DNA of 64,000 nucleotides, from the NCBI RefSeq assembly GCF_001613545.1, contig NZ_BDCO01000003.1, positions 496,001 through 560,000 of the forward strand. The letters run 5' to 3'. The stretch comes from Terrimicrobium sacchariphilum. GTDB lineage: Bacteria > Verrucomicrobiota > Verrucomicrobiia > Chthoniobacterales > Terrimicrobiaceae. A model generated the notes under the pieces. That model worked only from the letters and a program-made list of their open reading frames with translations, was not told where the DNA came from and searched no databases. Positions 7,362 through 59,332 of this stretch are shown one piece after another. Each line of letters begins with the position of its first letter. Positions within the stretch are counted from its first letter, which is position 1. A program made the position numbers and the translations under genes.

Positions 7362-9866
7362 CTACTCTGGGGTTGGAATGGTGGTGGGATCGCCAGACAC
7401 TGCCTCGGAGCTCATGGCCTGAGCGCTGGGCTGGGCGGTAATCTCGTCTTCCTCGTCGACCTTGATCAAAGGCTGACCGGCGGGATCGAGAAGATTGGCT
7501 GTGACGAACATGATCAGGTTGCGCTTGATGTGCTGATCTGCGGTCGTACGGAAGAGGCGGCCTGCGAGCGGGATGTCTCCGAGGATCGGAGTTTTGTCCT
7601 CGACCTTCTGGACGTCCTCGCGGATGAGACCGCCAAGCACCACCGTCTGGCCGTCATAGACCGTCACGTCAGTCGTCACCTCACGAGTGGAGAAGACCGG
7701 CTGGTTGATGATGTTCTCCGTGGCGACGAAGGTGTAGGTCGGTGAGAGGAAGGAGACGATCGGCGTGGTAGTCGTTGTCAGCACCGCTGCAACAGAAGCG
7801 CTGATCGGGCTGCCGTAGTTGATGAAGCCATCGAACTCCACGACTCGCGGCGAAAGTGTAAGATCGATCGTGAATCCGTCGGGTCCAACCGTGGGTTCGA
7901 CTTCCAGCGTGATACCGACGGGCTTGGTGTCAAACGCCGTGGGTGTCGTCGGGATGACGGGCTGGAAAGTGCTTCCCGTGGAAGCGGATACCTGCGGCAG
8001 ATCGTACTCGGTTGGGTAGCGGAACTCGCGAACGATCTGGATCGTGGCGCGCTGGCCGCTCTTGGTCGTCACCTTGGGAGAGCTGACGAGATCCACGCCC
8101 TTGGACTGGCTGAGGGCGCGGATGACCACCTGAAACTGAGGATTCGTAAAGACACCTGCGAGGGTGAATGCTCCAGCCGCTGGCCCGAGCGGGCTGCCGA
8201 AGAGCAGGGCATCCACCGCGTTCACGCTGATTGCAGAACTGCCAGTGCGGTTTCCCGATGTGATCGGGCCGGAGGTCGCGTTGCTCGCGCCGACCGGTGT
8301 CGTCGTTCCCTGGTTGATGAACGGATAGCGGGAGCTGTTGATGGACTGGCCGAAGCCTTGCGTGCCGCCGCCACCATAGACACCCGTGCCAAACGGGAGC
8401 TTGAACTGTCCGAGGAGCCAGTCAAAGCCAAGCTCGTTGAGGTTGTTTTGAGTGACCTCGAGGAATTTCGACTCGATCTCGACCTGGCTCGGCGGGGTCT
8501 GGAGTTGGACCTCCACGAGGGAATCGATGATATCGAGATTTGCCTGCGTGTTCTTGACGATCAGCTTGCTCGAGGCTGTGAGGAAGTTGGCGCTTGCCCC
8601 GGTCGGGAAAGTGACGCCATTGGCCTCGAGAAATTGGCGAGCCGTCGAACGAGCGGCGACCGAAGACATGGAACCCGGAGCCACTTGAATGCCACCGCCG
8701 CCAGCAGAGGCTGAGGAGTCGGAGCTGGCTGGGAGAGCCGTGATGAAACTCGGAGGGACCTTGTATTCCTTGGTGATCAGGATATCGGTCGGCTCCGACT
8801 GGGGAACAACCACGACCGCGTAAGGCTCGATCTTGAGCTTCAGGTTTGCCGCCTTGGCGACATAGTCGATGGCCGTGCGGAGCGGGACGTCATTCAGAGA
8901 AAGGGAAATGCGCTGCTGGGCCTCCGGTGCATCGGGGCTGAGCTTGAGCACGATATTCACGCCGCGGCGGGAGGGATCCTGTTCGCTGGTGTCGAGAGCG
9001 ACCGCGCGCTGCTTGAGGAAGTCGAGAGCCTCGCGGATCGTTGCGTCGTTGAAGTCAACGCGGGGAATGATGATATCGTCGAGCTTGCGATTGATGGCCG
9101 AGGTGCCGCGGGTATCGAGCTGCGGCTGGTCGATGATGTTGGACCCCTTGACGTCAAATTTGCGAACAGGCAGCTCCCAGCCCTTGACGACCTCACGCAG
9201 CATGTCGCCGCGGGCTTCGTCGTAAGCGGTATTGGAGTATTTGGTACGGGCATTATTGACCAGTTCCATTCCTCGGCGGGCCGCGATGTTGTAGCGATCA
9301 ATATTGAGCACCTGCTCGTAGCGCTTCTGGGCCAGATCGAAACGTCCGGAATCGTAGAATCCTTGCGCCTCCGAGAGGAGTTGCTTCACTTCCTCGATGT
9401 TCGCGATGAAGTTGGGCGTGAGTGTTTTGTTAAAGGTGTTCGGGTCCTTCAGCTTGGCCTGCAGAGCGAGGGCCGGGGCGTAGGTCGGGTTGTATCGATC
9501 CTCGAGCACTACAGCCACTGTGCTGCTGGCATCCTGGAAGCGACCTTCAGAAACGCGCTGTTCGGCGAGTTTCACGGCAGCCTGACTGAAACCGGTGAGT
9601 GCCGTGGTGCGGAGGGTGCTGGAGGCATCTCCGCCGGAGGGGAGGACATCGACTGCACTCTTGTAAAAGGCGAACGCCGTCTCGTAGTCCTGATTTTTCA
9701 TCGCCTGCTGTCCTTTGGCGATGGCGTCTTCGGCGTAGTTCTTGAGCTGTTCCTGTCGCCGGATTTCGCGCTCCGCAAGTCCCTGAACGCCAGTTTGAGC
9801 AAGCGAGGTGGCGGTACTGAGAGCAAGCGAAGCGGCTGCGACGGCGGTTAGGATTTGCAACTTCAT
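7362..9866 (-). CDS. Secretin-like outer-membrane protein, second tandem copy (Amuc_1098-like)
   Basis: An 834-residue paralogue of the adjacent secretin with the same order of parts: signal peptide (MKLQILTAVAAASLALSTAT), TPR-like region with RFDLAQKRYEQVL and DRYNIAARRGMELV, N0-like SLNDVPLRTAIDYVAKAANL, and a secretin core with VEIESKFLEVTQNNLNELGF and DKTPILGDIPLAGRLFRT. ATG at 9866 is chosen because it starts a clean signal peptide; the frame stays open 17 codons further upstream. The two copies differ mainly in the variable loops of the core (poly-Thr and Gly/Ser-rich stretches), which suggests an old duplication that has diverged. Confidence 0.87.
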   Translation of the reverse strand: MKLQILTAVAAASLALSTATSLAQTGVQGLAEREIRRQEQLKNYAEDAIAKGQQAMKNQDYETAFAFYKSAVDVLPSGGDASSTLRTTALTGFSQAAVKLAEQRVSEGRFQDASSTVAVVLEDRYNPTYAPALALQAKLKDPNTFNKTLTPNFIANIEEVKQLLSEAQGFYDSGRFDLAQKRYEQVLNIDRYNIAARRGMELVNNARTKYSNTAYDEARGDMLREVVKGWELPVRKFDVKGSNIIDQPQLDTRGTSAINRKLDDIIIPRVDFNDATIREALDFLKQRAVALDTSEQDPSRRGVNIVLKLSPDAPEAQQRISLSLNDVPLRTAIDYVAKAANLKLKIEPYAVVVVPQSEPTDILITKEYKVPPSFITALPASSDSSASAGGGGIQVAPGSMSSVAARSTARQFLEANGVTFPTGASANFLTASSKLIVKNTQANLDIIDSLVEVQLQTPPSQVEIESKFLEVTQNNLNELGFDWLLGQFKLPFGTGVYGGGGTQGFGQSINSSRYPFINQGTTTPVGASNATSGPITSGNRTGSSAISVNAVDALLFGSPLGPAAGAFTLAGVFTNPQFQVVIRALSQSKGVDLVSSPKVTTKSGQRATIQIVREFRYPTEYDLPQVSASTGSTFQPVIPTTPTAFDTKPVGITLEVEPTVGPDGFTIDLTLSPRVVEFDGFINYGSPISASVAAVLTTTTTPIVSFLSPTYTFVATENIINQPVFSTREVTTDVTVYDGQTVVLGGLIREDVQKVEDKTPILGDIPLAGRLFRTTADQHIKRNLIMFVTANLLDPAGQPLIKVDEEDEITAQPSAQAMSSEAVSGDPTTIPTPE

Positions 9867-9981: not shown

Positions 9982-10917
9982 TTATTGGGCTGGGAGGATT
10001 TTGTGTTCCTCACCAGATTGGAGGTCTTTTATTAGGGCTTCTGATTGGGAAATGTCAATGAGTTTATACTTCCGGTCGCTCTGCGGAGCGAGGGTGAACT
10101 CGTCATCCTTTTTCACCGTAAAGTGCGAATTATCATAGAGGTATGAGAATTCGCCGAATGACGTCGGGTCGTTCGCTTCCTTGCGGAACACGAGGACGAG
10201 TTTCTGACCGGTTTCGGTATTTTCGATGGTGAGCTCAGAGACATCGACCTCCATTTCGTCCTTGGTCATCTTGCTGGGCTTGTACGAGAGCAGCTTGTAC
10301 GGGGTTCCCTCGACCATTTGTCCGAGCTGGAGGAACTGGGTGCGGCTCTTTCCGTCGATGGCGTTGATCGTGAAGGTCTGCCCTTCATCAGGCGTGCCGG
10401 TGAATTTCAGGCGGAACGGCTTGGAGATGAACTTTGCGAGGCGGAGCTTCGTCCAGTACGGCGGGACGGATTTTGCGTCGAGAGGATCAGTGTTGTTGAG
10501 AAACTCCTCGAGATTGGAGAAGCGATCGCCATCCGGATCCTGGTCCTTGATGTCGCCTTCCCAATAGGGGAGATCATATTTGATCAGCCAGGCATTGGTA
10601 ATCGGAGCGTGGAGGTCTTTCCCAGCAGCGAGAGGGTCGATCAGCTCGTTGTCCAACAACACGTAGGGACGTGAGATGAAGAGTGAGCCATCGTGAGAGG
10701 TCCACGTCTTTGGCTTATCCACTGTCTGGCTCGCGGTTTGCAGGGCTTCGATCGGGAGAGGCTTGATCGTATTGTCCGGGCGCTTCGAAGAGTTTCGACT
10801 TGAGAAGGTGCCCGGGAAATCCTGCGAACCCAGAACGATAAATACGCTGGAGCCGATCAGGGCGAGGATGGCGACGGCCAGGATGGCGCGCTCGTAGTTC
10901 TTTTTCAACCAGTCCAT
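9982..10917 (-). CDS. Single-pass protein, Amuc_1099-like pilus-cluster component
   Basis: A 311-residue protein with an N-terminal membrane anchor (about residues 10-29 after MDWLKKNYERA) and a periplasmic region. A segment with DQDPDGDRFSNLEEFLNNTDP resembles the calcium-binding type-3 repeats found in many Verrucomicrobia surface proteins. The beta-rich C-terminus has no recognised domain. It occupies the Amuc_1099 position between the Amuc_1100-like gene and the secretins. ATG at 10917 is chosen: it leaves one base after the upstream stop codon and places the anchor at the N-terminus, while the open frame 12 codons further upstream overlaps the neighbour. The function is probably structural within the pilus-like machine. 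Confidence 0.7.
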   Translation of the reverse strand: MDWLKKNYERAILAVAILALIGSSVFIVLGSQDFPGTFSSRNSSKRPDNTIKPLPIEALQTASQTVDKPKTWTSHDGSLFISRPYVLLDNELIDPLAAGKDLHAPITNAWLIKYDLPYWEGDIKDQDPDGDRFSNLEEFLNNTDPLDAKSVPPYWTKLRLAKFISKPFRLKFTGTPDEGQTFTINAIDGKSRTQFLQLGQMVEGTPYKLLSYKPSKMTKDEMEVDVSELTIENTETGQKLVLVFRKEANDPTSFGEFSYLYDNSHFTVKKDDEFTLAPQSDRKYKLIDISQSEALIKDLQSGEEHKILPAQ

Positions 10918-10918
10918 G

Positions 10919-11848
10919 TTATTTCGAAGCTTTCTCGGGGGTCGGGTCGGCAAAGTCGATCATCTCCAGGTGGAGGGAGACCCGGACGAGTTCACGCCCG
11001 AGGACGACGTTGAGGTCTTTTTTGGCCGTCTCTGTGGTGGTGGGAGTGTAGGCCGTATTGGGGGTGGCTTCAGCTTGGGCGACCGGAGGACCCGCCTGGT
11101 TGGTATTCTCCACGTTTACGCTGCGGATGATGAGGAACTGGTTGTCGTTGAGGAGGGAGTTGAAGGCGACCCGGAACTTGCTCTGCTCGGAAGTGAACGA
11201 GATATCGAAGGGCGAGCGCTCGAGAACCTTCACCGGGGTGGCTGGACCGTTATTGCCGCCCTTTTTCTGGTTGGCGGCAGCCGCTTGCTGGCTCGGGGCA
11301 TTGTTTCCCTCCTGGATGAGTGGAGCGCGGACCAATCCATCGATGGACTGGACGCGGAAATCAATGAGTCGGAGTACGAGCTGCTTGATGACAGTCAATT
11401 GCCGGGCGAGGAAGGGAGCCGCCTGTTCCGAAGGAAGGGAGTTCGCGTATTGGCTGAAGCCAAGGTAGAAATCGGTCGGAAGGCCGACGCCCGCCTGCTT
11501 GGCTTTGTCGGCGACTTCATTCACCGAGGCTCGAAGATCGTCCTGAAACCTCTGGGGATTGACCGACATGTCGAGCGGTGCCTCCATTGCGGCAAGTTTC
11601 TTGCGCAGCGAGAGCAACTGCTCCTTGTACTGTTCGGTCTGGGCTTTGCTTTTCTCCAGATTTTCAACGCTCGGGAACGGGACGCGTTCCTGGAGGCCGT
11701 GAAGTTTGGTGATAGCCTGGTTATAGGCTTCGGTAGCTTCCTGAGACCGCGTGAGAGCTTGCGAAAGGAGGAAAGCAAAGGCACCGGCTCCCACGATCGT
11801 GAAAGCGGTGATTCCGGCTAAAAAGGGGTTTTCCTGGAGCCACTTCAT
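10919..11848 (-). CDS. Amuc_1100-like membrane-anchored protein
   Basis: A 309-residue protein with a short cytoplasmic N-terminus, one transmembrane helix (about residues 10-32), a periplasmic coiled coil (about 40-90) and an alpha/beta domain ending in ELVRVSLHLEMIDFADPTPEKASK-type strands (the final strand motif is VSLHLEMIDF). This is the layout of Akkermansia Amuc_1100, which has a PilO-like fold and ends in VSLNLVHF. A Gln/Ala/Gly-rich linker near residues 185-205 also has a counterpart there. It overlaps the PilM-PilN gene by 4 bp (ATGA), which suggests coupled translation. The assignment rests on architecture, local similarity and gene order. Confidence 0.75.
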   Translation of the reverse strand: MKWLQENPFLAGITAFTIVGAGAFAFLLSQALTRSQEATEAYNQAITKLHGLQERVPFPSVENLEKSKAQTEQYKEQLLSLRKKLAAMEAPLDMSVNPQRFQDDLRASVNEVADKAKQAGVGLPTDFYLGFSQYANSLPSEQAAPFLARQLTVIKQLVLRLIDFRVQSIDGLVRAPLIQEGNNAPSQQAAAANQKKGGNNGPATPVKVLERSPFDISFTSEQSKFRVAFNSLLNDNQFLIIRSVNVENTNQAGPPVAQAEATPNTAYTPTTTETAKKDLNVVLGRELVRVSLHLEMIDFADPTPEKASK

Positions 11849-13608
11849 GGCAGAGCGATGGGATTACGGAGGGGTAGGATGATTGTGTAGGGATACGCCC
11901 AGCTTCTGCCATCGGGGGTCGTGCGCTGTGGCACGATGTCGGTGTCTTTCTTTCCTTCCAGATTGAAGGCAGGCGATTCTTTGAGCTGTTTTACGAATTC
12001 GTCGATGACCTTTGGGGCATCCAGACGATCGGGCGGATTGGCCAGAAAGAGGCCGTTGATCTGAAGGGCATCGATTTTCGGCGGGCCGGCATCGGGTTTT
12101 GCTCCAGGCGCCGGAGTTGTCGCGACGGGGGTGACGGCGGCGGTTTTCGTTCCTCCAAAGCTGTAGGGTTTGCCTTGCGACAGCGGCTGGAGGTTGGTGA
12201 CCCAGATATTATAAGCCGGGAGTCGCGTTGCGAGTTCGTCGACGACGTTTGCCCAGATCGCGCGCTCCGCGACGGTGAGGATGAGCGGGGCGGCTGTCTC
12301 CTGGAGGGCTTTGTTCTCGGCGTCCACCCCGGCAAATTGATTTGCCACCTGCTCGAGGCGGGAAGCCTCGGCGGTCACGCTATCAAGCTGCTCCTGGGTG
12401 ATGTCGGCGGAGCGATTGACGAAATACCACCATGCGCCGAGCGAGGCGATGATGCAGAGCGAGGCGAGAACGAGGAACGGCTTGCGTTTGGCGAGGTCCT
12501 GCTCGCGGACGACGCTCTGTGGGCGGAGATTAATCTCCACGGGGCAGTTGCCGATGGCGCGCAGGGCGCATCCCACGACTTCGCCCAAGGCATGAGCCCG
12601 GGTTGAGGCAAAATCCGCTACGACCTGACTGTTGACCGTGACGTTGCGAAGGGGATTGAAATACTCAATCGGCGTCTGCAGCTTCTCGCTGAAAAACTCG
12701 ACCATGTAGGGGAGGCCTACGGTACCGCCGCAGAGGAAAGTGCGGACAGGGGCGCTGCCTCCCTGGTTTTGGCGGTAAAAGCTGATCGAGCGGGCGATAT
12801 CTGCGTGCAGGCGGGTCATGGTGTTGCGCACGATCTTCGAGATGCGCATTTCCGTCGGGTCCTCCGGCTCGGCGTAGGCTCCGCCCAGACCGACAAATCC
12901 CTTTTCGAGCTTCAACTTCTCGCCGACAGTAACATCCTGCTTGAACTCCTTGGCGACGGCGGCACTGATGGTATTGCCTCCGACCGGAATGCTGCGGCTG
13001 AAAACGCGATCACCTTCCACGAAAATGAGGTTCGTGGTCCGCGCGCCGATATCGACCAGCAGCGAGCAGCCGCTCAGGTCGCTATAGTTGTAGCGAAAAG
13101 CGTTGTAGAGAGCCATCGGGGCGACGTCGATCGTCGCGCTGCGGAAACCGCCCTTGTTGATGGACGAGTTGATGTCTCCCAGTTGATCGGCCTTGATGGC
13201 GACGAGGACAACGTTCCAGTTGTTGTCCTTGGCTTCGCCCATGATCTGATGGTCCCAGACCACTTCATCAATGGGGAAGGGGACGTTCTGCTGGGCTTCA
13301 AAACCGATGATGCTTTCCACATCGTTCGGGCTGCTGCCGGGCAGTTTGACGAAGCGAGTGAAAACCGCCTGCGACGGGAGGGCAAAATGGATTTTTTCCT
13401 TGGCGGAAATTCCCAGAGCTTTGCGCAGGTTGGCCACTGCGGCCTCGATCTGCGCGGGACGAGTCAGATCCGCTGCCGGATCGACGATCAGCTCCTCTTG
13501 CTGGCAGGCGTGAAGGGTGACGCCGCCAGACGGGTTGGTGTGAAATTCCGCCAAAGTGACGGTCTGCATGCCCAGATTGAGGGCGAAGATACGGTTAGGC
13601 GAGGCCAT
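11845..13608 (-). CDS. pilM: PilM-PilN fusion, pilus inner-membrane platform protein (Amuc_1101-like)
   Basis: A 587-residue protein. Residues 1-375 are an actin-like PilM domain with the nucleotide-binding signatures FALNLGMQTV, LLVDIGARTTNLIF and FLCGGTVGLPYM. The motif INLRPQSVVREQ follows, corresponding to the INLLP motif at the start of PilN, then a transmembrane helix (about 390-410) and a periplasmic coiled coil plus an alpha/beta domain typical of PilN. In type IV pilus systems PilM and PilN are separate and bind each other through this motif; here they are covalently joined. It probably recruits the Amuc_1100-like (PilO-like) partner encoded directly downstream with a 4-bp overlap. 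Confidence 0.85.
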   Translation of the reverse strand: MASPNRIFALNLGMQTVTLAEFHTNPSGGVTLHACQQEELIVDPAADLTRPAQIEAAVANLRKALGISAKEKIHFALPSQAVFTRFVKLPGSSPNDVESIIGFEAQQNVPFPIDEVVWDHQIMGEAKDNNWNVVLVAIKADQLGDINSSINKGGFRSATIDVAPMALYNAFRYNYSDLSGCSLLVDIGARTTNLIFVEGDRVFSRSIPVGGNTISAAVAKEFKQDVTVGEKLKLEKGFVGLGGAYAEPEDPTEMRISKIVRNTMTRLHADIARSISFYRQNQGGSAPVRTFLCGGTVGLPYMVEFFSEKLQTPIEYFNPLRNVTVNSQVVADFASTRAHALGEVVGCALRAIGNCPVEINLRPQSVVREQDLAKRKPFLVLASLCIIASLGAWWYFVNRSADITQEQLDSVTAEASRLEQVANQFAGVDAENKALQETAAPLILTVAERAIWANVVDELATRLPAYNIWVTNLQPLSQGKPYSFGGTKTAAVTPVATTPAPGAKPDAGPPKIDALQINGLFLANPPDRLDAPKVIDEFVKQLKESPAFNLEGKKDTDIVPQRTTPDGRSWAYPYTIILPLRNPIALP

Positions 13609-13647: not shown

Positions 13648-14271
13648 TTAATTGCCGGAGGTCTTGGCTTTGACCGGCTCGAAATAATCCCATGCGAGAT
13701 GGGAGAAGGGGGTTTCCGTTTTATTCAGAACGAATCCCTGGACAGGCTGGAATTGGGTCCACCATTCGCCGCGTCCTTTGAGGCTGTTGGTGGCAACGAC
13801 CTGTCCCTGGCTGGTGATGGTCACGCCCACGTCAAAGACCGTGCTGGCCGGATTGGTCAGGGAGCCGCCATCGAAGAAGCGTTCCAAGGTGCGCGGGGCG
13901 ACATACACGACGGACTTGAGATCCTTGCCCGGCATGACCGTGGTATGGGTGACGGTGCCCACCAGCATGGTCGGTTTCCGATCTTCTGTGACCTGCTGGT
14001 TGTTGAGGAGGATGTAGTAGGTAAAGGTGAGGTCGTCGAGGTACTTGACGTCCTTGGTCCGGGGAGTCCAGTCAAACGCGGTCTCGATCTCCAGCCAGTT
14101 CTTTGCCTGCCGTACCCGCTTGTTGTAGGTGCCTGCTCCCTCGGGCGACTGCTGAAATGCCGGAGTGATCTTGTCGATCTTGAAATCGCTGTTCGCGACC
14201 TGCGCGGAAGCGCATGCCATGGAGAGAAGACCAGCTGCGACTACAAGGGGAACCAGTTTGCAGGGAGGCAT
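13648..14271 (-). CDS. Small exported protein, Amuc_1102-like, first gene of the pilus-like operon
   Basis: A 207-residue secreted protein with a signal peptide (MPPCKLVPLVVAAGLLSMACASAQ), followed by a beta-rich domain without a recognised catalytic motif. Its place upstream of the PilM-PilN gene corresponds to Amuc_1102 in Akkermansia. ATG at 14271 is chosen over a TTG seven codons upstream because it opens the signal peptide directly. A Cys near the end of the hydrophobic stretch (LLSMACAS) could alternatively be a lipobox. The function is unknown. Confidence 0.65.
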   Translation of the reverse strand: MPPCKLVPLVVAAGLLSMACASAQVANSDFKIDKITPAFQQSPEGAGTYNKRVRQAKNWLEIETAFDWTPRTKDVKYLDDLTFTYYILLNNQQVTEDRKPTMLVGTVTHTTVMPGKDLKSVVYVAPRTLERFFDGGSLTNPASTVFDVGVTITSQGQVVATNSLKGRGEWWTQFQPVQGFVLNKTETPFSHLAWDYFEPVKAKTSGN

Positions 14272-49890: not shown

Positions 49891-49899
49891 ATAGCTCTT

Positions 49900-50664
49900 A
49901 TGTTCCTTCTCCCCCAGAGATGCTCGGTCTCGAGTTCGCTTTCCCGCCCCCGGAATGGGTTCAGTCTCATAGAGCTTCTGGTGGTTATTGCGATCCTTGG
50001 GCTTCTGGTTGCGCTGGTTATTCCCGCTTTGGGTGCGCGAGGTAATGGATCGGTGACTCAGGCGGTCACTCAGATGTCGGATTTCCTCCAGCAGGCCCGC
50101 GCATATGCCATGGCCAACAATACCTATGTCTGGGTGGGTTTTTGCGAGGAGGACGGCGTAGCGCCGAGTGGTCCCGTTACAAGCGCGCCACCCTATCAGG
50201 GCAAGGGGCGGGTCCTCCTGGCGGCGGTGGCTTCCGTCGATGGCACGCGGATCTTTGATGAGAATGCCACTCCGACGATGCTGCCTGCGGCGCGTGTCGT
50301 GCCGATCGATCGCATCTTGAAGATCGACGGCGTGCATCTCACGGATCTTCCAGCCCCCGAGGGCGGCGACTCGCGGAAGATCAGCGGTCGCTCGGCCACG
50401 CCTTCGCAGGATGCCTCCAGCCGCATCAGTAGTGATAGCGGCAGTCGGTCAAACTTCCCATTCAGCATCCAGGGTTATCAGTTTTACAAGACAGTCAGGT
50501 TCAGTCCGCGCGGTGAGGTGGTCATCAATGACAGTGCGCTCAAGCGAGTGGGGGAGATCGGGTTGCGCCCGGTCAGGGGAAATGTCGTGGACCAGACCTC
50601 TCCCAACATCGCCGCCATCCAGTTCACGGGCGTCGGCGGCAACTTGCAGATTTTTCGGCCATGA
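49900..50664 (+). CDS. Verru_Chthon cassette protein D (GspH-like pseudopilin)
   Basis: A 254-residue prepilin. The leader RPRNG is followed by FSLIELLVVIAILGLLVALVIP, with the prepilin peptidase site after Gly20 and the conserved Glu at position 5 of the mature protein. A globular C-terminal domain has no recognised motif. The ATG at 49900 has a GAGG site; an earlier TTG lies inside the promoter-like region. By order and N-terminus it is the D protein of the four-gene cassette known from Chthoniobacter and Verrucomicrobium, and it corresponds to GspH/FimT-type minor pseudopilins. It overlaps the next gene by 4 bp. Confidence 0.8.
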   Translation: MFLLPQRCSVSSSLSRPRNGFSLIELLVVIAILGLLVALVIPALGARGNGSVTQAVTQMSDFLQQARAYAMANNTYVWVGFCEEDGVAPSGPVTSAPPYQGKGRVLLAAVASVDGTRIFDENATPTMLPAARVVPIDRILKIDGVHLTDLPAPEGGDSRKISGRSATPSQDASSRISSDSGSRSNFPFSIQGYQFYKTVRFSPRGEVVINDSALKRVGEIGLRPVRGNVVDQTSPNIAAIQFTGVGGNLQIFRP

Positions 50665-51137
50665 AAGTGCGTTCCCTATCCCCCAAAGGTTTCTCCCTTG
50701 TCGAAGTCACCCTGGCTATCGGTATTGCCGGGTTTTGCCTCATCGCTCTCTTCGGCATGTTGCCGGTGGGATTGAAAAGCAATCAGGCGGCCGTGCAGCA
50801 GATGCTGGCCAATGGCATTCTCACCAGCGTGGTCTCGGATCTGAAAACCACGCCGGTGACCGAACCCCGCGGGTCGGCGACGAGTTCGCCGCGCTTTCAG
50901 ATTCCGCTTCCTGCACAGAACTCCACAGGAGCAAGTAATCCGCTGTACTTCACCGAGGATGGACGCCTGACTTCCGACCAGGGGCAATCGATGTTTCGCC
51001 TCACCGTGACCTTTCTGCCCAATTCCGGCAAGCGATCGGCGAGTCTTGCAAATGTGAAGATCACCTGGCCTTCGGTCGCGTCGACCGACAAAGCCTCAGG
51101 CGGTGTGGAGACCTTTGTCGCGATGGACCGCAACTAG
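50661..51137 (+). CDS. Verru_Chthon cassette protein B (GspI-like pseudopilin)
   Basis: A 158-residue prepilin with a very short leader (cleavage after Gly10) and FSLVEVTLAIGIAGFCLIALFGMLPVG, with Glu at position 5. The mature domain is small and ends in the strand ETFVAMDR. Size and position between the D and C proteins match GspI in the GspH-I-J-K order of type II secretion minor pseudopilins. Translation is probably coupled to the D gene through ATGA. The function is inferred from family and architecture only. Confidence 0.8.
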   Translation: MKVRSLSPKGFSLVEVTLAIGIAGFCLIALFGMLPVGLKSNQAAVQQMLANGILTSVVSDLKTTPVTEPRGSATSSPRFQIPLPAQNSTGASNPLYFTEDGRLTSDQGQSMFRLTVTFLPNSGKRSASLANVKITWPSVASTDKASGGVETFVAMDRN

Positions 51138-51138
51138 G

Positions 51139-52017
51139 ATGAGCGTGGGCCGACATGCATGTCGGGGAGGCGTGGAAATCCGACGCCACTCCCGGGCGGG
51201 ATTTACCATCATTGAGATGCTCGTGGCGGTGGCGGTCTTTACCATGCTGCTCGTTCTCATAACGATGCTTTTCAAGAACGCGAGCGCCTTGGTCACGGCC
51301 AACAGCCGGCGGCTCGATGCCGATACGCAGGCCCGGCAGCTCCTTGACCGGCTGGCAGTGGACCTTGCCCAGATGCTCAAGCGGGACGATGTCGACTATT
51401 TCATGAAGTCCTCGATGTCTCCGCAGAGCGGCAATGACCAGATGGCTTTCTTTAGCGAGGTACCCGGGTATTTCTCCAGCTCTTCAAGCAGCCAGAGTCC
51501 GATGTCTCTGGTGGCCTATCGCGTGAATGACTCGGCGTCCTCCGGTCGGCTTCATAGCGTGGAGCGTCTCGGCAAGGGGCTGGAGTGGGGCGGAACGAGC
51601 GGCTCCGGAGGCAAGATGGCGTTTCTTCCCCTGACCATCAAGGGACTCTGGCCCCAGGCAGCCAACAACTCGGCCGATGACGACTACGAGCAACTCGGGA
51701 CGGACATCTTTCGATTTGAGTATTTTTACCTTCTGCAAGACGGCACGCTTTCGACGGACTTTCCCAAGTCGATCAACGATGTTGCCGGCATCTGTGTCGT
51801 CGTTGCGGTGATCGATCCGAAATCGCGTGCCATTGTGAGCGATGACCGACTCGCGACGCTGGCTGGGCGCATGGCCGACTTTGACAACAGCATGAAGACC
51901 GGCGAACTGGAGAAAAAGTGGCGTGACGCCATAGACACCAGCGATCTTCCCAAGGCGGCGCTCTCATCCGTGAGGGTGTACGGGCGGACGTTTTATCTCA
52001 ACCCGCTGGCTCTATGA
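51139..52017 (+). CDS. Verru_Chthon cassette protein C (GspJ-like pseudopilin)
   Basis: A 292-residue prepilin. After a 21-residue basic leader (cleavage after Gly21) comes FTIIEMLVAVAVFTMLLVLITMLF with Glu at position 5, then a helix with ARQLLDRLAVDLAQML, typical of GspJ, and a globular domain. ATG at 51139 begins one base after the B stop; a longer open frame from 51103 would overlap B. The C-terminal end overlaps the A gene by 4 bp. Confidence 0.8.
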   Translation: MSVGRHACRGGVEIRRHSRAGFTIIEMLVAVAVFTMLLVLITMLFKNASALVTANSRRLDADTQARQLLDRLAVDLAQMLKRDDVDYFMKSSMSPQSGNDQMAFFSEVPGYFSSSSSSQSPMSLVAYRVNDSASSGRLHSVERLGKGLEWGGTSGSGGKMAFLPLTIKGLWPQAANNSADDDYEQLGTDIFRFEYFYLLQDGTLSTDFPKSINDVAGICVVVAVIDPKSRAIVSDDRLATLAGRMADFDNSMKTGELEKKWRDAIDTSDLPKAALSSVRVYGRTFYLNPLAL

Positions 52018-55000
52018 CTTACCCGCGTTCCAGATTTGCCGCCCGGCGCGGAGGCATGGCTCTGGTCATCGTCCTGGCCTTTGTCGTTTTGCTTTCCGGT
52101 CTCGTGCTGGCGTACATTTCGCACTCCATGCTGACGCGGAAGATGTCCGACAGCAGCCTGGGCGACACGCGTGCGCGCCAACTTGCAGAAAGTTCGCTGG
52201 AGGTAATCGTTTCGGATCTCAAGCAGGAGATTGCCAATGGCTCTACGACGAACACCTACGGTACAAATATCGTCTATCTGCCTTCTTCCAACGCCTACAT
52301 CGTGCCGATGCGAAGCGGCAACCCGACGGTCAGCGGCACCAACGATCCCATCCCCAATCTCATTCGCCGTAGCGTGCGCTCCGATGTCATTGCCTCTCCC
52401 GGGGTGCCTAGCCGGGCATCGGCTGTCAACTCCGCCACAGACCCCTCTCGCAATGGGCGCTTTATCAGCCCGGCCCGCTGGAACAAGCATTACCTGATCC
52501 CGCGATCGGACAAGGGAAACAGTGTCGATACCACTCCCAATGTGTCGGCAAATTTCACTGCTCCAGACTGGGTCTATGTGACGACCAACGGTCCTGCCGT
52601 GCTCAACGCTCCCAATACCAGTGTGATCGGGCGCTACGCCTATGCCATCTATGATGAGGGCGGTCTGCTGGATGCAAATGTCGCAGGCTATCCATCGGCC
52701 TCTGAAGTGCGAAAGACCGCAGCCAGCGGGGCGGCTACGGGAGTATGGGGTACCGGAAACAAGGGAGGTTCCGCGGCCGCCGATCTCACCGTCCTGGGCC
52801 TGAAACAACAGGAGATCGACCAGATCGTCGGGTGGCGGACCTTTGCCAGCAGTCGTCCCTCTGGAGCGTTGCCGGGACTGACCTTCGACGAGGGCGCGGC
52901 GAAGCGGTACTACGACCTTTGGAAGGCCCATCCCTATGCGTTCCTGAAAGTTCCCCGGGTCTCTGCATCGTCTACGGATCAGGTTTTCACCAGCCGACAG
53001 TCGCTGCTGGAGTTTCGCAAGCTCGTGGGATTCTCGCAGGATGCGCTGCAGTATCTGGGCACGTTTTCCCGGGACCTTGAGCAACCTGCATTCATCCCCA
53101 ATCCCAATCGCCCAAAGGTTCAGGCGAACTGGAACAACAACAGCACCTACGGCACCGGAAATGACGCCTTTGGCGCGGATCGAGACACGACTCCGGAGTC
53201 GGACATCAATCCTCCATTTCCCCAGGTGAGGGTCACAAAGTCGTTCACGCGACGGGATGGCACCATGGCGGTGGTCGGAGAGCCATTGGTGAAAAAACGG
53301 TTCGCCCTGAGCCGTCTCGGCGAGATTCTCCGAACAGCCACAGCCTCGAAAAGTGACAGTGATTCGATCTATCGCGACTTTGGCATCTACCGCGGCGCGG
53401 CTACCGAACCCTGGCAATACGGCCATGGCGACGACTCGGGGATCTTGCGGCTGGATAAGGTGGCCGCCCAGGGGCGCGAACCGGATTTCTTTGAGTTGCT
53501 CAAGGCAGCCATCAATGTCGGCAGCCTCGGCAAGAGCGCAGCTCAGCCCGGCTGGAACCAGACGGGCACCTACAGCGAGTTGCAGCACTCCGGTCGCGAT
53601 ATTTATACGAATCTTCAGATCCTTCAGATTGGTGCCAACATCATCGATCAGGCAGATAATGACGGCTATCCGACGCGTATTGCCTTTGCCGGAGATTCGA
53701 CCAAGGAAGTGCGCGGGGTCGAGTCGTTGCCCTATCTATATCGGTTGCGCGTCCGTTATGCGCCTCAGACGGATATGCCTGCGGCTGGCGGAGCGCCGGC
53801 CTCGTATCCGGCTTCCATGCTGGTTAATCCGGAAGTGTGGAACCCGCACGCGACCGACGCCCCATCGGATGCCCCGACAGATTTTCGCATCCATGCGACC
53901 AGCGCCCTCGGGGCAGGAGTACCGACCTCGTCCACGCTCGCCTACAAGGATGGGACGACGACGGTCGTCCCGATCGATTGGGACTCTGCCGGCAATCTCA
54001 CCTTTCGCACGGGTGGCAGTCTCTACCGGGAACCCACCGTGCTGGTTAAGCCCGGCATTCCTTCCGGCAGCGGACTCTCTGGACCAAGCCGGGCGGATGC
54101 CCTCTCGGGCTTGAACCTCACGGGACTGGTGGCCTTTGATTTCCAGCGCAAGAAGGGAGCCTCCGATGTCGACAAGGGGTTCCTCGGGCTGCCGGACTCC
54201 GGCCCCGTCATTATCTACCTGGAATACAAGGATGGGGCGTCTTATCGCATATACGACCAGATGATCGTTCAATGGAGCGGAGCCACGTTCTCGCCCAAGG
54301 AGGAAAGCACCGCGACGTATCCGAATCCTCCGAAAAGCTGGGTGAACTACCCCTCCAAGCTCGTGAAGGTTGAGTTTGAGCGCAATGATCCCCGTACCTC
54401 GCGCTGGGGGGTTAGCGCATGGGACCTGCTCGGGCTCATGGCTCCTACGGACCCCACCAACATGATCTTCCCGTCGAATTGGGCTGGCCTCGACCAGCCA
54501 CCGCGCGGCCCGAAGACGGGCGTCCCATCGGACAAGGGATTTGTCAATGTATTCGGCTCCGGAGTGGCTCCTTCAAACTACAATAACAACGACCTTTATC
54601 CCAATAATGATTCGAGTTTCCGTGGGTTCAAGCAAGGGTACTGGACGATGAACACGGTGCGCGACCAGAGGGGATTCTACGGCGTGAGCGACCAGGCATT
54701 TTATAATCGAGACCCGGACGGCATCGTGCGCAGGGCGATGGGCGGGTATAGCTCCGATACTGCCTCGGGCGGTTCGACGAGCACCTCCCAGGGGTTGCCT
54801 ATGATCACTGGCAACAAGGCAAGCCGTCCCGTGATTCTTAACCGCCCGTTTCGCTCTGTGGCGGAACTCGGCTATACCTTTCGCGACACGCCGTGGAAGA
54901 ACCTGGATTTCTCCTTCCCGGAAAGCGGGGATGCAGCGCTGCTCGACGTCTTTTGCGTGGATGAAGTCAATAACGACAGCTCTCTGATCGCCGGAAAGGT

Positions 55001-55541
55001 GAACCTGAATACCCGCCAGATGCCTGTGCTGAAAGCGCTGCTGGCCGGATCGATCGTGGATGAATTGTCGTCGACTCCCACGGTTCTCGGTGAAGCCGTG
55101 GCGGAGTCCATCGCCAGCAAGCTCATTGAGCGCACCACATCCAAGGATACTGACAAGGGACCGCTCGCCGCCCGAGGGGAGCTCGTCGGGCGTTGGAAGG
55201 GCACGGGAGCCAGCCCTGCGACCTCTCCAAACAAGGACCCCGATGCTCTCTACTCGGGATTCTCCCTTGATGTAGGCACCGTGAGCGGGATGAAGGGCAC
55301 TGATGCCGCTTTCATCACCGCGCAGCGCGAGGCCGCCGTCCGGGCGCTGGCGGATTCTGGCACCACCCGGGTATGGAACCTGCTCATCGATGTGGTGGCC
55401 CAGGCCGGTCGGTTCGCGCCCGGGCAATCCAGCCTCAGCGGATTCTACGTCGAGGGTGAGAAACGTTACTGGCTGCACATCGCCATCGATCGGTTCACCG
55501 GAAAGGTTTTGGACAAGCAACTGGAGGTCGTGACGGAATGA
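52014..55541 (+). CDS. Verru_Chthon cassette protein A (very large GspK-like protein)
   Basis: A 1175-residue protein. A basic leader RSRFAARRGG precedes MALVIVLAFVVLLSGLVLAYIS, a pilin-like helix that lacks Glu5, as in GspK/PilX proteins that sit at the pseudopilus tip. The next helix ARQLAESSLEVIVSDLKQEI is also typical. The C-terminal part (about 1020-1100) has KVNLNTRQMPVLKALLAG, similar to the NxNxA-type helical region of GspK. The long middle section is rich in Pro, Ser and Asn and could be an adhesive or substrate-binding domain. It overlaps both neighbours by 4 bp. Confidence 0.82.
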   Translation: MTYPRSRFAARRGGMALVIVLAFVVLLSGLVLAYISHSMLTRKMSDSSLGDTRARQLAESSLEVIVSDLKQEIANGSTTNTYGTNIVYLPSSNAYIVPMRSGNPTVSGTNDPIPNLIRRSVRSDVIASPGVPSRASAVNSATDPSRNGRFISPARWNKHYLIPRSDKGNSVDTTPNVSANFTAPDWVYVTTNGPAVLNAPNTSVIGRYAYAIYDEGGLLDANVAGYPSASEVRKTAASGAATGVWGTGNKGGSAAADLTVLGLKQQEIDQIVGWRTFASSRPSGALPGLTFDEGAAKRYYDLWKAHPYAFLKVPRVSASSTDQVFTSRQSLLEFRKLVGFSQDALQYLGTFSRDLEQPAFIPNPNRPKVQANWNNNSTYGTGNDAFGADRDTTPESDINPPFPQVRVTKSFTRRDGTMAVVGEPLVKKRFALSRLGEILRTATASKSDSDSIYRDFGIYRGAATEPWQYGHGDDSGILRLDKVAAQGREPDFFELLKAAINVGSLGKSAAQPGWNQTGTYSELQHSGRDIYTNLQILQIGANIIDQADNDGYPTRIAFAGDSTKEVRGVESLPYLYRLRVRYAPQTDMPAAGGAPASYPASMLVNPEVWNPHATDAPSDAPTDFRIHATSALGAGVPTSSTLAYKDGTTTVVPIDWDSAGNLTFRTGGSLYREPTVLVKPGIPSGSGLSGPSRADALSGLNLTGLVAFDFQRKKGASDVDKGFLGLPDSGPVIIYLEYKDGASYRIYDQMIVQWSGATFSPKEESTATYPNPPKSWVNYPSKLVKVEFERNDPRTSRWGVSAWDLLGLMAPTDPTNMIFPSNWAGLDQPPRGPKTGVPSDKGFVNVFGSGVAPSNYNNNDLYPNNDSSFRGFKQGYWTMNTVRDQRGFYGVSDQAFYNRDPDGIVRRAMGGYSSDTASGGSTSTSQGLPMITGNKASRPVILNRPFRSVAELGYTFRDTPWKNLDFSFPESGDAALLDVFCVDEVNNDSSLIAGKVNLNTRQMPVLKALLAGSIVDELSSTPTVLGEAVAESIASKLIERTTSKDTDKGPLAARGELVGRWKGTGASPATSPNKDPDALYSGFSLDVGTVSGMKGTDAAFITAQREAAVRALADSGTTRVWNLLIDVVAQAGRFAPGQSSLSGFYVEGEKRYWLHIAIDRFTGKVLDKQLEVVTE

Positions 55542-56260
55542 GTATCTGGAAAAAAGTCGCATCCCTGCTGGTGGCGGGAATGAGTGTTGCCATCTCCTCC
55601 CATGGACAGGAAATACCGAAGCCGCCATTCCTGCAGGAGCATGCCCCGGAGATGAGTCGCTGGACAGTGGCTTTTCAATACGGTGGCAAGGAGGGCTCAC
55701 GGCCGACGGCTCCCATGGTGCTGGGGCAGAGATTATCCCGTGTCGAGGTGATCAAGACAGGCCGGATCCGCTCCATCGTCGGTACGTTTGCCGGTGGCGC
55801 GGTGCAGGAGGTTTGGGAGCAGGGGCCATTGCAAGTTTTGCGCGATCCGGGTTTCCAGCACGAGATCGTTCGCCGCTCCACCCAGCGGGGAGGGGATTTC
55901 CCAGAGTTCTGGTGGATAGCCGCAGATCGGTACAAGGGACGCCAGACGGTGGATCAAAAGGAGTGCCTTGTATTCTCGGGGGAGTATTTCCCGCTCCAGT
56001 TTGCCGATCCGGGGCTCTATGCTGCCGCCACGGCTGATGAAAATTCCGTAATCGAACTGGGAAGCAAGGTGCCGGTGACCGCGTATATCGATCCGACATC
56101 CCGATTGCCGGTTAAGCTCATGGTTGGCGACGATGTGCGGGTCTATACTTTCGGAGAGCCCCCGACGACGCAGCTCGCCATCCCGGCAGAGTTTCAGGCT
56201 GCGCTTGCCGATGTGCAGCAGCGTTACAACGCAATCGTCAAGCCACTCTCTCCTCCCTGA
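55538..56260 (+). CDS. Exported protein of unknown function, fifth gene of the Verru_Chthon operon
   Basis: A 240-residue protein with a signal peptide (MSIWKKVASLLVAGMSVAISSHG) and no recognised domain. The rest alternates short beta strands, with QTVDQKECLVFSGEY and TAYIDPTSRLPVKLMVGDDVRVYTF. The latter is reminiscent of outer-membrane lipoprotein-sorting-type folds, but I cannot assign it. The start overlaps the A stop by 4 bp (ATGA), so it is translated with the cassette and probably works with it in the periplasm. GH38 starts 33 bp downstream on the same strand. Confidence 0.7.
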   Translation: MSIWKKVASLLVAGMSVAISSHGQEIPKPPFLQEHAPEMSRWTVAFQYGGKEGSRPTAPMVLGQRLSRVEVIKTGRIRSIVGTFAGGAVQEVWEQGPLQVLRDPGFQHEIVRRSTQRGGDFPEFWWIAADRYKGRQTVDQKECLVFSGEYFPLQFADPGLYAAATADENSVIELGSKVPVTAYIDPTSRLPVKLMVGDDVRVYTFGEPPTTQLAIPAEFQAALADVQQRYNAIVKPLSPP

Positions 56261-56293: not shown

Positions 56294-59200
56294 GTGTTAC
56301 CTGATAATCCCTTCCTTCAGCTGGTTCTCCCCCGGGCGCATTCTGTGCTCGACCGCATTCAGTCCTTGATCTGGATTCGTGCGGCTAACGTGGAGTGCGA
56401 GTTTGGAGGATCTTTTCGCGATGCGATTTCTTTCGAGCATGCCGCGGGCCTTCCTTATGAAAAAATAGTCCTGCCCTTTTATTGGGGCGGGATTTTTGAC
56501 AGAGGGTGGTTCCGGGTGCGGGTGCCGGAAGGCTGCGTGCGGCCGCTCTACCTGCACTGGAGGGATCAGGGCGAGGGAACTTTATATATCGATGGCGTGC
56601 CCTACTACGGGTTTGACGTGGCTCATCGTCGCTGCCGGCTGCCGGAGGGGGTGACGGAGTTTCATGTGGAGGGCCTTTGCCTCCAGAGCGCGATCTGGCA
56701 CCCGGAGGCGACCGGCCTCGATGCCCGGGGGAGCGCGCTCACCGTGGCCGAGGTATGCCATCGCGATGATCTGGCCTGGGAGGTGTATCATGATACCCGC
56801 GTGCTCCTGGATCTCGCCATTGAGGAAGCCAAGGCGGCCAATCCCTTTGAAGCTCCGAAGCTCGTGGGTGCTGGGTATCGCCCGGTGCTGAATTCCATCC
56901 CGGTGCTCTATCGACGGATGCTGCGAGCGCTGGATGATGTGTTCAACGCCTTCGATCGCGGCGGGTTGGCAGGGGCCAGGAACGCGTTGAAATCCGCCTA
57001 TGAACTGCTTTCGGGGCAGAAGGAAACCATCCGTGCCGTGCTCACCGGGCATGCTCATATCGATCTCGTCTGGCTCTGGCCCGAGCGGGGCAGTGAATAC
57101 AAGGCGGTGCATACCTTCTCGACCATGACGCGGCTCATGGACATGTATCCGGAGTTTATCTTCGGGTATTCACAGCCCGCCAGCTACGATGCGGTGGAGC
57201 GGCTCAGCCCGGCCCTTATGGAGCGGGTGCGCGACCGCATGGGCGAGGGACGCTGGGAGGCGGTGGGGGCGACCGAGGTCGAGTCCGATACCCAGATGGC
57301 CTGCGGCGAGGCCCTGGCTCGCAGTTTCCTTCTTGGCCAGGATGGATTTCGTCGCCTGCAGGGCCGCCCGTCCCCCGTGCTGTGGCTGCCAGATGTCTTT
57401 GGCTATAGCGGATGTCTGCCCCAGATCATGAGGCAGACAGGCGTGCCGTATTTCTTCACGACCAAACTTACCTGGTCAAACATCAACCTGTTTCCCTACA
57501 GCAGCTTTGTGTGGAAGGGCATCGATGGATCGGAAGTTCTCGTCCACGTCACCCAGGACAATGGCTACAACCAGGTGGCGTCTGCCGAGGAGCTGCGGCG
57601 GGGAGCGAGAGCCTATCGCCAGTCCGACGTCCATGACGAATTTCTCGCCCCTACCGGCTATGGGGACGGAGGAGGCGGTGTCACCGAGGAAATGTGCGAG
57701 AGGGTGCGTCGATTTCAAGTGCTGGCCGGGACTCCTCATGTCGGCTGGGGCCGTATTGAGGATTACTTTGAGCGTCTTGATGAGGTGCGCCCGAGATTGC
57801 CCGTTTATCAAGGTGAGCTTTATCTCGAGTATCACCGCGGTGTGTTTACCACGCACGGCAATCTCAAGGCGGTTTTCCGCCAGTGCGAGCGCGCTCTGCA
57901 AATCTGGGAGGCTGCTCGCGTGGCCATGGGAGGCGGGGAGCTTGAAGCTCACTACTGGCGCCGCATGGTCATGGCCCAGTTTCATGACTACATCCCGGGC
58001 AGTTCGATCTGGGAGGTGTATGAGGAGGGACTGCCCGAGCTAGCGGCCATCGCGGAAAGGGCCGTTGCATCGGCGGCTGATGAACTCCACTCCGGGCCGG
58101 AACCAGCGCTTTTCAACCCGCTTCCAGTCAGTCGCACGGTCATCGTACATGACCAGGGCGATGAGCAAAAGGCGTATCGACTCCCCCCTCTCTCGGGATC
58201 ATCGTTGCAGACACTGCCGGAGGTTTTCGTTTCCGAGTACGCTGTCTCCGTCACCGCTACCTCGCTGCAGAGCAGCCGCGTCTCCGCTGGCTTCGATGGT
58301 CGGGGGCGGGTGACTTCTCTGGCGTTCAATGATCGGGACGTTGCTATTGCCTCTCCCCTCGGCGCCCTGGTTATTTACCCTGATCATCCATCGGATTTCG
58401 ACGCCTGGGATATTGATAGACAGACCCTCAATCTTGGCGCGGAGATTTCCGCGACGGGGAAGCCGCGAGTGTCGCTCTCCGAACTGGAGGCGGGAATCGA
58501 GTTCACCCTCGCACTTGGCGAACGCAGCACGGGAGTTGTGCGTTATCGGGTCGATGCCTTTCAGCCGGTGCTCCATATCGAGTACGACATCGACTGGCAG
58601 GAGGAGGAAAAACTCTTGCGGGTGAATTTCCCGACAGAGTACGCCGGGCGCATGGCGCGCTTTGGCACTCCGTTTGGCAGCATCCTGCGCAGCCAGCAGC
58701 CGGGCGAGTCTCGCGATGAGGCGATGTTTGAAACACCGGCCAGCCGGTGGGCGATTGTCTCGGATGATGGTGAGGCGGAGGGCCTCGGGTTGGTTACGGA
58801 GTCCAAGTACGGCTTTTCCTGCCGTGCGGGCACGCTGGGGGTTTCCCTGGTGCGCTCGCCGCGCGTGACGGGCGGGGAACCCGAGCCAAAGCAAAAGATG
58901 TTTCCCGCCTCGCTGCGCCATGGCGGAGCAAGGGCCGCATTCACCGACCAGGGGCGGCATGTCATTCGGATGGCCCTCTGTTTCCAAGCCCCCGACCTGG
59001 CCCGGGAAGACCTGGCGCCGGTCCTCGCAGATACACTGTACACCGACGTTGTGCCCTATCGCGGTGGCGCGGTGACCTCGGGGTTCCTTGGTCTTGAGGG
59101 AGGCGAAAGCCTGGTTCCCTGCTGGGCAAAGCCGGCAAGGTCCGTCTCGTCGGGATGGGTCCTGCGCCTGCATGAAACGCTGGGCCGACGCGGGCGGGCC

Positions 59201-59332
59201 AAGGTGCGTTTGGCCGAGGGCTATCAGGCCGTCCGCACCGACCTGACCGAGGCCGTGGCGGATGGTGTCCCGGTCACTCACGTTTCTTTCGGTCCCTACG
59301 AGATCATCAGTCTTTTAGTTGAACGCAAGTAA
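56294..59332 (+). CDS. Alpha-mannosidase (GH38)
   Basis: A 1012-residue cytoplasmic enzyme that removes alpha-linked mannose. After an N-terminal region of about 245 residues, the catalytic domain shows GHAHIDLVWLWPERG with zinc ligands His255 and Asp257, WLPDVFGYSG with the nucleophile Asp367, a central helical domain with MAQFHDYIPGSSIWEVYE (another zinc His), and C-terminal beta domains (about 600-1012). The order matches bacterial and vacuolar GH38 enzymes. The start is a GTG at 56294, since no ATG lies before the conserved N-terminal region. It probably acts with GH130 on mannose-containing glycans. Confidence 0.9.
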   Translation: MLPDNPFLQLVLPRAHSVLDRIQSLIWIRAANVECEFGGSFRDAISFEHAAGLPYEKIVLPFYWGGIFDRGWFRVRVPEGCVRPLYLHWRDQGEGTLYIDGVPYYGFDVAHRRCRLPEGVTEFHVEGLCLQSAIWHPEATGLDARGSALTVAEVCHRDDLAWEVYHDTRVLLDLAIEEAKAANPFEAPKLVGAGYRPVLNSIPVLYRRMLRALDDVFNAFDRGGLAGARNALKSAYELLSGQKETIRAVLTGHAHIDLVWLWPERGSEYKAVHTFSTMTRLMDMYPEFIFGYSQPASYDAVERLSPALMERVRDRMGEGRWEAVGATEVESDTQMACGEALARSFLLGQDGFRRLQGRPSPVLWLPDVFGYSGCLPQIMRQTGVPYFFTTKLTWSNINLFPYSSFVWKGIDGSEVLVHVTQDNGYNQVASAEELRRGARAYRQSDVHDEFLAPTGYGDGGGGVTEEMCERVRRFQVLAGTPHVGWGRIEDYFERLDEVRPRLPVYQGELYLEYHRGVFTTHGNLKAVFRQCERALQIWEAARVAMGGGELEAHYWRRMVMAQFHDYIPGSSIWEVYEEGLPELAAIAERAVASAADELHSGPEPALFNPLPVSRTVIVHDQGDEQKAYRLPPLSGSSLQTLPEVFVSEYAVSVTATSLQSSRVSAGFDGRGRVTSLAFNDRDVAIASPLGALVIYPDHPSDFDAWDIDRQTLNLGAEISATGKPRVSLSELEAGIEFTLALGERSTGVVRYRVDAFQPVLHIEYDIDWQEEEKLLRVNFPTEYAGRMARFGTPFGSILRSQQPGESRDEAMFETPASRWAIVSDDGEAEGLGLVTESKYGFSCRAGTLGVSLVRSPRVTGGEPEPKQKMFPASLRHGGARAAFTDQGRHVIRMALCFQAPDLAREDLAPVLADTLYTDVVPYRGGAVTSGFLGLEGGESLVPCWAKPARSVSSGWVLRLHETLGRRGRAKVRLAEGYQAVRTDLTEAVADGVPVTHVSFGPYEIISLLVERK

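Follow-up and report, generated by a model that had tools for sequence, protein, structure and literature searches.

Which machine, if any, could be served by a set of minor pilin genes that is encoded among glycosidases, with no motor beside it? The question is raised by a stretch of 64,000 nucleotides from Terrimicrobium sacchariphilum (assembly GCF_001613545.1, contig NZ_BDCO01000003.1, positions 496,001-560,000), hereafter the window, in which position 1 is the first letter and whose genes were called with a custom codon-usage finder trained on window genes. Five consecutive genes of the plus strand, D, B, C, A and E, form one operon, with 4-base overlaps at D/B, C/A and A/E (Table 1). A preliminary description of this DNA had presented D, B, C and A as a tightly overlapped four-gene cassette of minor pseudopilins; the four genes and their overlaps stand, and a fifth member of the operon, E, had been overlooked. 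Very probably, D-B-C-A are a tip set of the GspH-I-J-K type. We infer that the roughly 25 cassettes of this genome are interchangeable tips for a few shared pilus-type machines, each tip being stored beside the genes of one sugar diet.

The mature N-termini of D (G/FSLIE), B (G/FSLVE) and C (G/FTIIE; the slash marks the prepilin site) all carry Glu5, a residue required for pilus assembly in known systems, and that of A (G/MALVI) is a pilin helix without Glu5, as in GspK; both traits had been recognized in the preliminary description. Among the NCBIfam families, D matches GspH (2.4e-9) and Verru_Chthon D (2.6e-7), B matches Verru_Chthon B (TIGR02598; 3.5e-11), C matches Verru_Chthon C (8.3e-6) and GspJ (4e-5 over 117 positions), and A matches Verru_Chthon A (1.9e-5) and GspK (8.9e-4). 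At the level of sequence, these prepilin-family matches are beyond chance. The Verru_Chthon bit scores of D, B, C and A (30.9, 43.5, 25.3 and 22.8) are all below the curated cut-offs (70, 51.4, 256.5 and 332.3, respectively), and the window cassette is therefore best regarded as a divergent sister class of Verru_Chthon. A search of the genome (4.75 Mb, three contigs) with the TIGR02600 family and the window A protein found 25 A genes, of which 13 are above the TIGR02600 cut-off (class I), one is intermediate (C3:266906-270046), and 11 form class II. Within class II, the window A protein shares 31-40% identity with the other ten, and the A proteins of the two classes are homologous (hhalign 98.4%, E 5.2e-15).

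For D, B and C, reference profiles of the type II secretion system (T2SS) pseudopilins G, H, I and J were collected from operons of relatives, located via the GspK family. Compared at full length, the D profile reaches 76.5 with GspH, against 35-49 for G, I and J, and the B profile 55.8 with GspI over 102 columns, against 33-45 for the others; C is closest to GspJ by a small margin (55.3, with GspI at 49.5). Most of the score stems from the common N-terminal part. The D family profile also finds FimU, the type IV pilus counterpart of GspH, through its globular part (4ipu, E 0.0011, positions 43-137), and the C profile weakly finds GspJ chains (5bw0, E 0.52, and 3nje, E 0.8; positions 36-129). 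The order of the cassette genes is that of the minor pseudopilins in the genome's own T2SS, in which H, I and J were assigned by position and weak matches, and comparison with the T2SS operons of relatives likewise gives H-I-J-K. The claim that the cassette is an H-I-J-K-type tip set is supported, with a GspK match for the model of A, clear D-H and B-I pairs at full length, and C-J by its small margin.

Protein A was modelled with AlphaFold from 25 sequences (mean pLDDT 66, pTM 0.74), and the model was compared by VIA-align with the top 1000 chains from Foldseek, 996 of which were aligned. The four best chains are all GspK/XcpX: 3ci0_K (Z 10.3, 245 of 280 residues aligned), 5vtm_X (Z 10.0, 233 of 259), 6utu_C (Z 9.9, 232 of 261) and 9a1f_T (Z 9.5, 266 of 295). 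The fifth-best has a Z of 6.8, and only GspK is found above Z 8; A is accordingly predicted to have the GspK fold. The alignment with 3ci0_K spans A from residue 43 to the final residue, and therefore GspK parts would lie at both ends, with a large body between them. Residues 581-935 are the most variable among the 11 class II paralogues (21-22% pairwise identity), identity elsewhere being 43% at 451-580, 53% at 936-1010 and 57% at 1101-1175; the stretch 1011-1100, between conserved parts, is also variable (23%). Judging from the model, A is a GspK whose extra size lies in a rapidly diverging middle. A carbohydrate-binding module was considered for this middle and set aside, the best matches (HAP2, C2 and GH2 sandwich domains) having a Z of at most 6.8, within the background. 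A search of a viral library with A gave nothing significant, and the A and B profiles gave no relevant match among PDB sequences. The closest named relative of A, 79% identical, comes from a Verrucomicrobia metagenome-assembled genome (locus L161), where the block is conserved from an MFS-like gene, via D-B-C-A and an E-like gene, to a gene of 1000 residues.

E begins with a signal-like helix. Its model (pLDDT 82) is matched by Foldseek to RseB (E 3.6e-6), LprF, LppX and LolA, and by VIA-align to 2yzy, 8i34, RseB and LprF (Z 10.2-11.2), which points to a fold of the LolA/RseB type; a LolA-type Pfam match was found in none of 22 E members at E values up to 1. In a search of 58 genomes, 15 contained E, with 49 copies in total. 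All but one (48/49) lie directly 3' of a class II A gene on the same strand, with gaps of -4 to 110 bases, and the remaining one is a tandem second copy in genome G027; no stand-alone E and no E beside a class I A gene was found in these genomes. E is strictly linked to class II A. Ten of the 11 class II loci of T. sacchariphilum have E (the exception is L054), including L068, where the gene finder had overlooked it and a profile search recovered it. Both sister species also have a class II A gene without a detected E (G001:C3:66182-69742 and G002:C10:470570-474145).

None of the 25 A genes of the genome is interrupted by a stop. In 20 of the 25, A has D, B and C beside it (8/11 in class II and 12/14 among the other A genes), including L054, where C was recognized in a separate check. 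L043 is an A gene by itself and L040 a split cassette; the absence of D or B at L058, L060 and L068 may reflect overlooked genes, because the calls rest on the custom finder. The place of D varies: it can precede B, follow A or lie between C and A. Among the 58 genomes of relatives there are 0 to 38 A candidates per genome, counted at first look and unconfirmed. Several genes of the cassette diverge together, both in class I (A-B, rho 0.46, p 0.014; A-D, 0.49, p 0.0045; B-D, 0.68, p 0.0005) and in class II (A-C, 0.39, p 0.006; B-C, 0.69, p 0.0005; A-D, 0.38, p 0.019; B-D, 0.38, p 0.036). In genome G120 (L136:9163-15245) the called order is A followed by three prepilins; gene order therefore varies within the phylum. 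In three genomes that belong to genus g29, the gene calls include a GspK-like giant of ~1300 residues but place no D, B or C next to it (L132:3807-7760, L134:3573-7412 and L135:3867-7766).

The glycosidase neighbours that had been noted for the window cassette are confirmed by a GH38-type alpha-mannosidase, a GH130 at 45618, a GH5 at 41514 and a GH2 at 32455; also nearby are heparinase-like genes and two regulators, one of LacI type and one of GntR type, the latter with a sugar-binding domain. For the cassettes of the genome as a whole, up to two non-cassette genes of at least 100 residues were taken per side, excluding E, and 98 of the 134 listed formed the flank set; the rule always skipped the gene directly before A, whereby one true neighbour was lost (at L043). 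The control consisted of 80 proteins at 20 of 25 evenly spaced points picked by hand; four points were left out because they fell inside or close to a cassette or within the window, a fifth was dropped to keep the set at 20 regions, and one that was kept (L145) is ~9 kb from a cassette. The flank proteins include ten members of Peripla_BP_3, five each of LacI and GntR, four of GH38, and three each of AXE1, SSF and CBM_4_9, and none of these seven families reaches two members in the control. GFO_IDH_MocA and PATR (each 4 vs 2) occur in flanks and control alike. For Peripla_BP_3, 10/98 in the flanks compares with a bound of at most 1/80 in the control, the family tallies covering the first 25 families (Fisher p 0.024 at 1; one test of one family). 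The look at flanking genes that the preliminary description had advised thus reveals an enrichment in sugar regulators and glycosidases over the control, and there is a strong likelihood that the cassettes belong to sugar-utilization neighbourhoods. The window mannosidase clusters with three other flank genes, Glyco_hydro_38 is found in four flank proteins, and a gene of about the same length also follows E in L161. In the MFS transporter of the window, the MFS match stops near residue 455, leaving a long remainder, and L161 retains a protein of equal called length. According to passages of PMC13274419, a pulG-like pseudopilin (pgaptmp_000050) with 67 homologues in the genome is found in an alginate gene cluster of Verruconatronum alginivorum; 17 genes were over-expressed on alginate, 14 of them in two clusters, and a pseudopilin is one of the other three.

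The machinery that could drive these tips is encoded at a distance. Eight proteins of the genome match PF00437: five are long and of the GspE/PilB assembly type, and three are shorter, one confirmed by scan as PilT-family and the other two guessed from their length to be PilT-like. There are six secretin hits, at 2.10, 2.47 (two) and 3.01 Mb of contig C2 and two in the window. None of these ATPase or secretin hits lies within 40 kb of any of the 25 A genes, and we therefore rejected the idea that cassettes have their own motors; nor is a complete T2SS encoded with a cassette by this measure, GspF not having been searched for genome-wide. The nearest hit to any A gene is a window secretin, 44 kb from the window A and ~42 kb from the start of D, and no additional prepilin was called adjoining the window cassette in the custom gene calls. 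The preliminary description fares well here: no motor or secretin was detected near the cassette; the count that it had advised gives many cassettes (25 A genes) and few motors (eight PF00437 hits, five of them assembly-type); and its refuting case, cassettes always accompanied by a complete secretion system of their own, was not observed. Because of these counts, and provided that the cassettes assemble at all, they are likely to work with a core encoded elsewhere.

Prepilin-type hits (E up to 0.01) number 97 in the genome, 39 of them no more than 3 kb from an A gene and the other 58 farther away; several cassette prepilins score under this threshold. Candidate major pilins are therefore plentiful, and the 58 distant N-termini are possibly major pilins or single substrate-linked pilins. 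At L061:7941-11307 there are tandem PilB/GspE-type ATPases, with about the same spacing in many relatives and no other pilus gene called beside them, which are a candidate motor for scattered pilins. A 640-residue GspE-like ATPase at L063:8082-10004 has no GspE match in its first ~230 residues and a secreted-protein-like start. ATPase hits in the 58 relatives range from 0 to 13 per genome. In two genomes of one family, G032 (L181:8563-14365) and G050 (L182:14768-17394), a class II cassette is near a GspE/PilB-like ATPase preceded by a 303-residue gene; further on in L181 are two small genes that by eye resemble an MglA-type GTPase and a roadblock protein.

The preliminary description had named the secretins at 4761-14271 as a possible shared core. 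Secretins are indeed present, and the region (4761-14292) as a whole proves to be a complete Amuc_1098-1102 locus of the MUL2 type, with all five families over their cut-offs at 7362-14220 and the secretin doubled; a similar double secretin is found in genome G003 (L139). In the Akkermansiaceae, amuc_1099-1102 make up MUL2, a locus whose type IV-like pilus is reported to serve attachment to fucose-rich glycans (PMC13174399). According to work cited in PMC13174399, A. muciniphila needs mul genes to accumulate glycans, and passages of PMC12418764 state that MUL genes, such as those for pili and for protein complexes of the periplasm, are required for accumulation in internal compartments. In its main text, PMC13174399 uses neither "pseudopilin" nor "minor" and describes no such cassettes, and the relevant passages of PMC12418764 make no mention of minor-pilin cassettes. 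We infer that the MUL2-type locus of the window is the best candidate for a shared core, because a minor-pilin set is absent from the MUL2 operon and already part of the T2SS; that it really is the core of the cassettes is at best an even matter.

Table 1. Features of the window; positions are counted from its first letter, and a slash marks the prepilin site.
Feature	Position	Strand	Remarks
Second secretin	4761..7349	-	52% identical to the Amuc_1098-type one
Amuc_1098-family secretin	7362..9866	-	Candidate shared core; E 1.2e-262, over cut-off
Amuc_1099-family protein	9982..10917	-	Candidate shared core; E 3.4e-84, over cut-off
Amuc_1100-family protein	10919..11848	-	Candidate shared core; E 2e-93, over cut-off
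Amuc_1101-family PilM-like protein	11845..13608	-	Candidate shared core; E 4.1e-218, over cut-off
Amuc_1102-family pilin-like protein	13648..14220	-	Candidate shared core; E 1.5e-31, over cut-off
MFS transporter	47217-49970		~840-917 residues
D, GspH/FimU-like minor prepilin	49900..50664	+	254 residues; site NG/FSLIE; TTG start at 49858 possible
B, GspI-like minor prepilin	50661..51137	+	158 residues; site KG/FSLVE
C, GspJ-like minor prepilin	51139..52017 (starts 51103, 51139 or 51172)	+	~281-304 residues; site AG/FTIIE
A, giant GspK-like protein	52014..55541	+	1175 residues; site GG/MALVI, no Glu5
E, fifth cassette gene	55538..56260	+	240 residues; signal-peptide-like N-terminus; LolA/RseB-type fold (predicted model)
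GH38-type alpha-mannosidase	56294..59332	+	PRK09819 match; neighbour outside the core cassette

Taken together, we give an even chance to a reading in which the cassette is a GspH-I-J-K (or FimU-PilV-PilW-PilX) tip set placed on a core encoded elsewhere, likely MUL2, and in which A meets a glycan. A prepilin peptidase, whose presence is presumed, would process the four pilins; D-B-C-A would then come together in the inner membrane and initiate a pilus or pseudopilus, with the distant core, most likely the MUL2-type locus together with one of the dispersed assembly ATPases, as its driver. A would sit at the tip, its variable middle meeting the glycan (or perhaps an enzyme) of the adjoining sugar cluster, and E, as a periplasmic protein of LolA fold, could chaperone A or accept the material brought in by the tip. 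The choice of tip would fall to the local sugar regulators. As for its parts, contact between A and a glycan has about even prospects or somewhat less. The most extended version, in which one or two cores, MUL2 first, accept any of ~25 sugar-regulated tips, the giant GspK captures the glycan, and the class II E receives or chaperones it, we put forward tentatively, as on balance improbable.

Several observations weigh against the reading of the cassettes as glycan-contacting tips on a shared core. Foldseek by itself gives no significant match for the model of A, and in sequence profiles the link to GspK is weak for both classes (69.7% over 16 columns at 994-1009 for the window A; 84.4% over the N-terminal helix for class I). 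Without its first 32 residues, D still matches H best, yet with an E value of only 0.0096, and B and C trimmed in the same way have no convincing match among the G, H, I and J profiles. The beta-sandwich matches of the A middle, which would bear on glycan binding, are below Z 7. E was detected at 48 of 59 class II A loci and not at the other 11, and three class II gene pairs do not diverge together (A-B, rho 0.20, p 0.13; A-E, 0.21, p 0.13; C-D, 0.19, p 0.11). The numbers of A candidates and ATPase hits are weakly and positively correlated over the 58 genomes (rho 0.42, p 0.001), with values of 0.39 over the 46 genomes at least 90% complete and 0.35 (p 0.17) over the 17 of these that belong to the same family; on these values, the A counts being first-look candidates, we set aside a one-to-one scaling of motors with cassettes. 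In genomes G036, G032 and G050 a class II cassette is near an assembly ATPase, a linkage that concerns 3 of 59 class II loci and was set aside as being about at chance level by a rough estimate. Finally, a secretin match is found in 137 of 144 genomes of the phylum, in a set for which only four A candidates were scored per genome; its co-occurrence with A therefore does not single out MUL2, and we rejected it as proof on that ground.

Of the competing explanations, the one that survives best regards the cassettes as alternative tips of the ordinary T2SS, exporting enzymes encoded nearby, such as glycosidases. The genome does have a complete T2SS at C2:3001000-3019000, with GspD, E and F and its own G-H-I-J-K; D-B-C-A pair with exactly the H-I-J-K of such systems, and the authors of PMC13274419 propose, in passages of that paper, a possible T2SS export of alginases. 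Against this, that T2SS is already furnished with H-I-J-K, including a GspK of normal size (304 residues), and the cassette neighbours include regulators, transporters and phosphorylases, which are expected in the cell or the membrane. We consider the T2SS explanation rather improbable. The four pilin-like proteins could instead undergo pilin processing and form a static, motorless complex or adhesin of the envelope, with A and E providing periplasmic or surface scaffolding for a single glycan. The lack of a detected motor near the 25 cassettes would be explained in this way, as would the size of A, far larger than known GspK, the predicted periplasmic LolA-type fold of E, and the existence of incomplete sets (A alone at L043, the split L040, and the lone giant A-like gene of the three g29 genomes). 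A static complex remains unlikely, however, given that D, B and C keep Glu5 and that 20/25 A genes keep three pilin genes alongside. That the repeats merely hitch-hike with sugar-utilization islands, as a selfish or neutral expansion whose function is not tied to the neighbours, would suit the strongly variable copy number of relatives and the uncorrelated A-B, A-E and C-D divergence of class II, but is very unlikely in view of 25 A genes open without stops, strongly conserved ends of A (53-57% identity), a strictly linked fifth gene, and the other gene pairs of both classes that do diverge together.

The capture and uptake of large polysaccharides by Verrucomicrobiota are largely unstudied. 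PMC13174399 states this for aquatic Akkermansiaceae and reports pilus-like attachment as well as accumulation of glycans in regions of the periplasm. If every sugar cluster comes with a dedicated pilus tip, the neighbours would hint at the substrate of that tip, which could be tested gene by gene, and the variable bodies of A would be a catalogue of candidate glycan receptors. Many genes named merely "Verru_Chthon cassette protein" or "prepilin-type protein" would also be explained. A shared core with exchangeable, sugar-regulated tips, if true, would put pili in the role that many paired receptors play in the sugar-utilization loci of Bacteroidota, and would offer Verrucomicrobiota a route to the selfish uptake of polysaccharides. 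The weaker claim, which identifies TIGR02600-type proteins as giant GspKs and adds a fifth member of LolA fold to class II, would by itself give these families a structural identity.

The term "Verru_Chthon" was not found in the open-access literature searched, and the open-access titles and abstract beginnings among the matches listed contain no description of H-I-J-K cassettes beside sugar clusters. Among the systems closest to the window cassette are the Verru_Chthon A-D proteins (TIGR02600, TIGR02598, TIGR02599 and TIGR02596), with which it shares the same four families and a homologous A; unlike these, class II of the window is below all four cut-offs and carries E. The PulG-like pseudopilins of V. 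alginivorum are similar in that a pseudopilin family is multiplied and one member is found in a sugar cluster, but in the passages of PMC13274419 they are single pulG-like proteins and not an H-I-J-K set with a giant GspK. The MUL2 locus of Akkermansiaceae, for which a role in glycan attachment is reported (PMC13174399), has all five Amuc families in common with the window locus, where the secretin is doubled. With the GspH-I-J-K tip (3ci0, 5vtm and 9a1f) and FimU-PilV-PilW-PilX, the cassette shares four pilin-like genes in H-I-J-K order, Glu5 in three of the products and its absence from the K-like A, the predicted K fold of A, and the resemblance of D to GspH/FimU. It differs from GspH-I-J-K in the size of A (1175 vs ~300 residues), with its variable extra body, in the 25 A genes per genome for which no dedicated core was detected nearby, and in its fifth gene, whose product is predicted to have the LolA fold.

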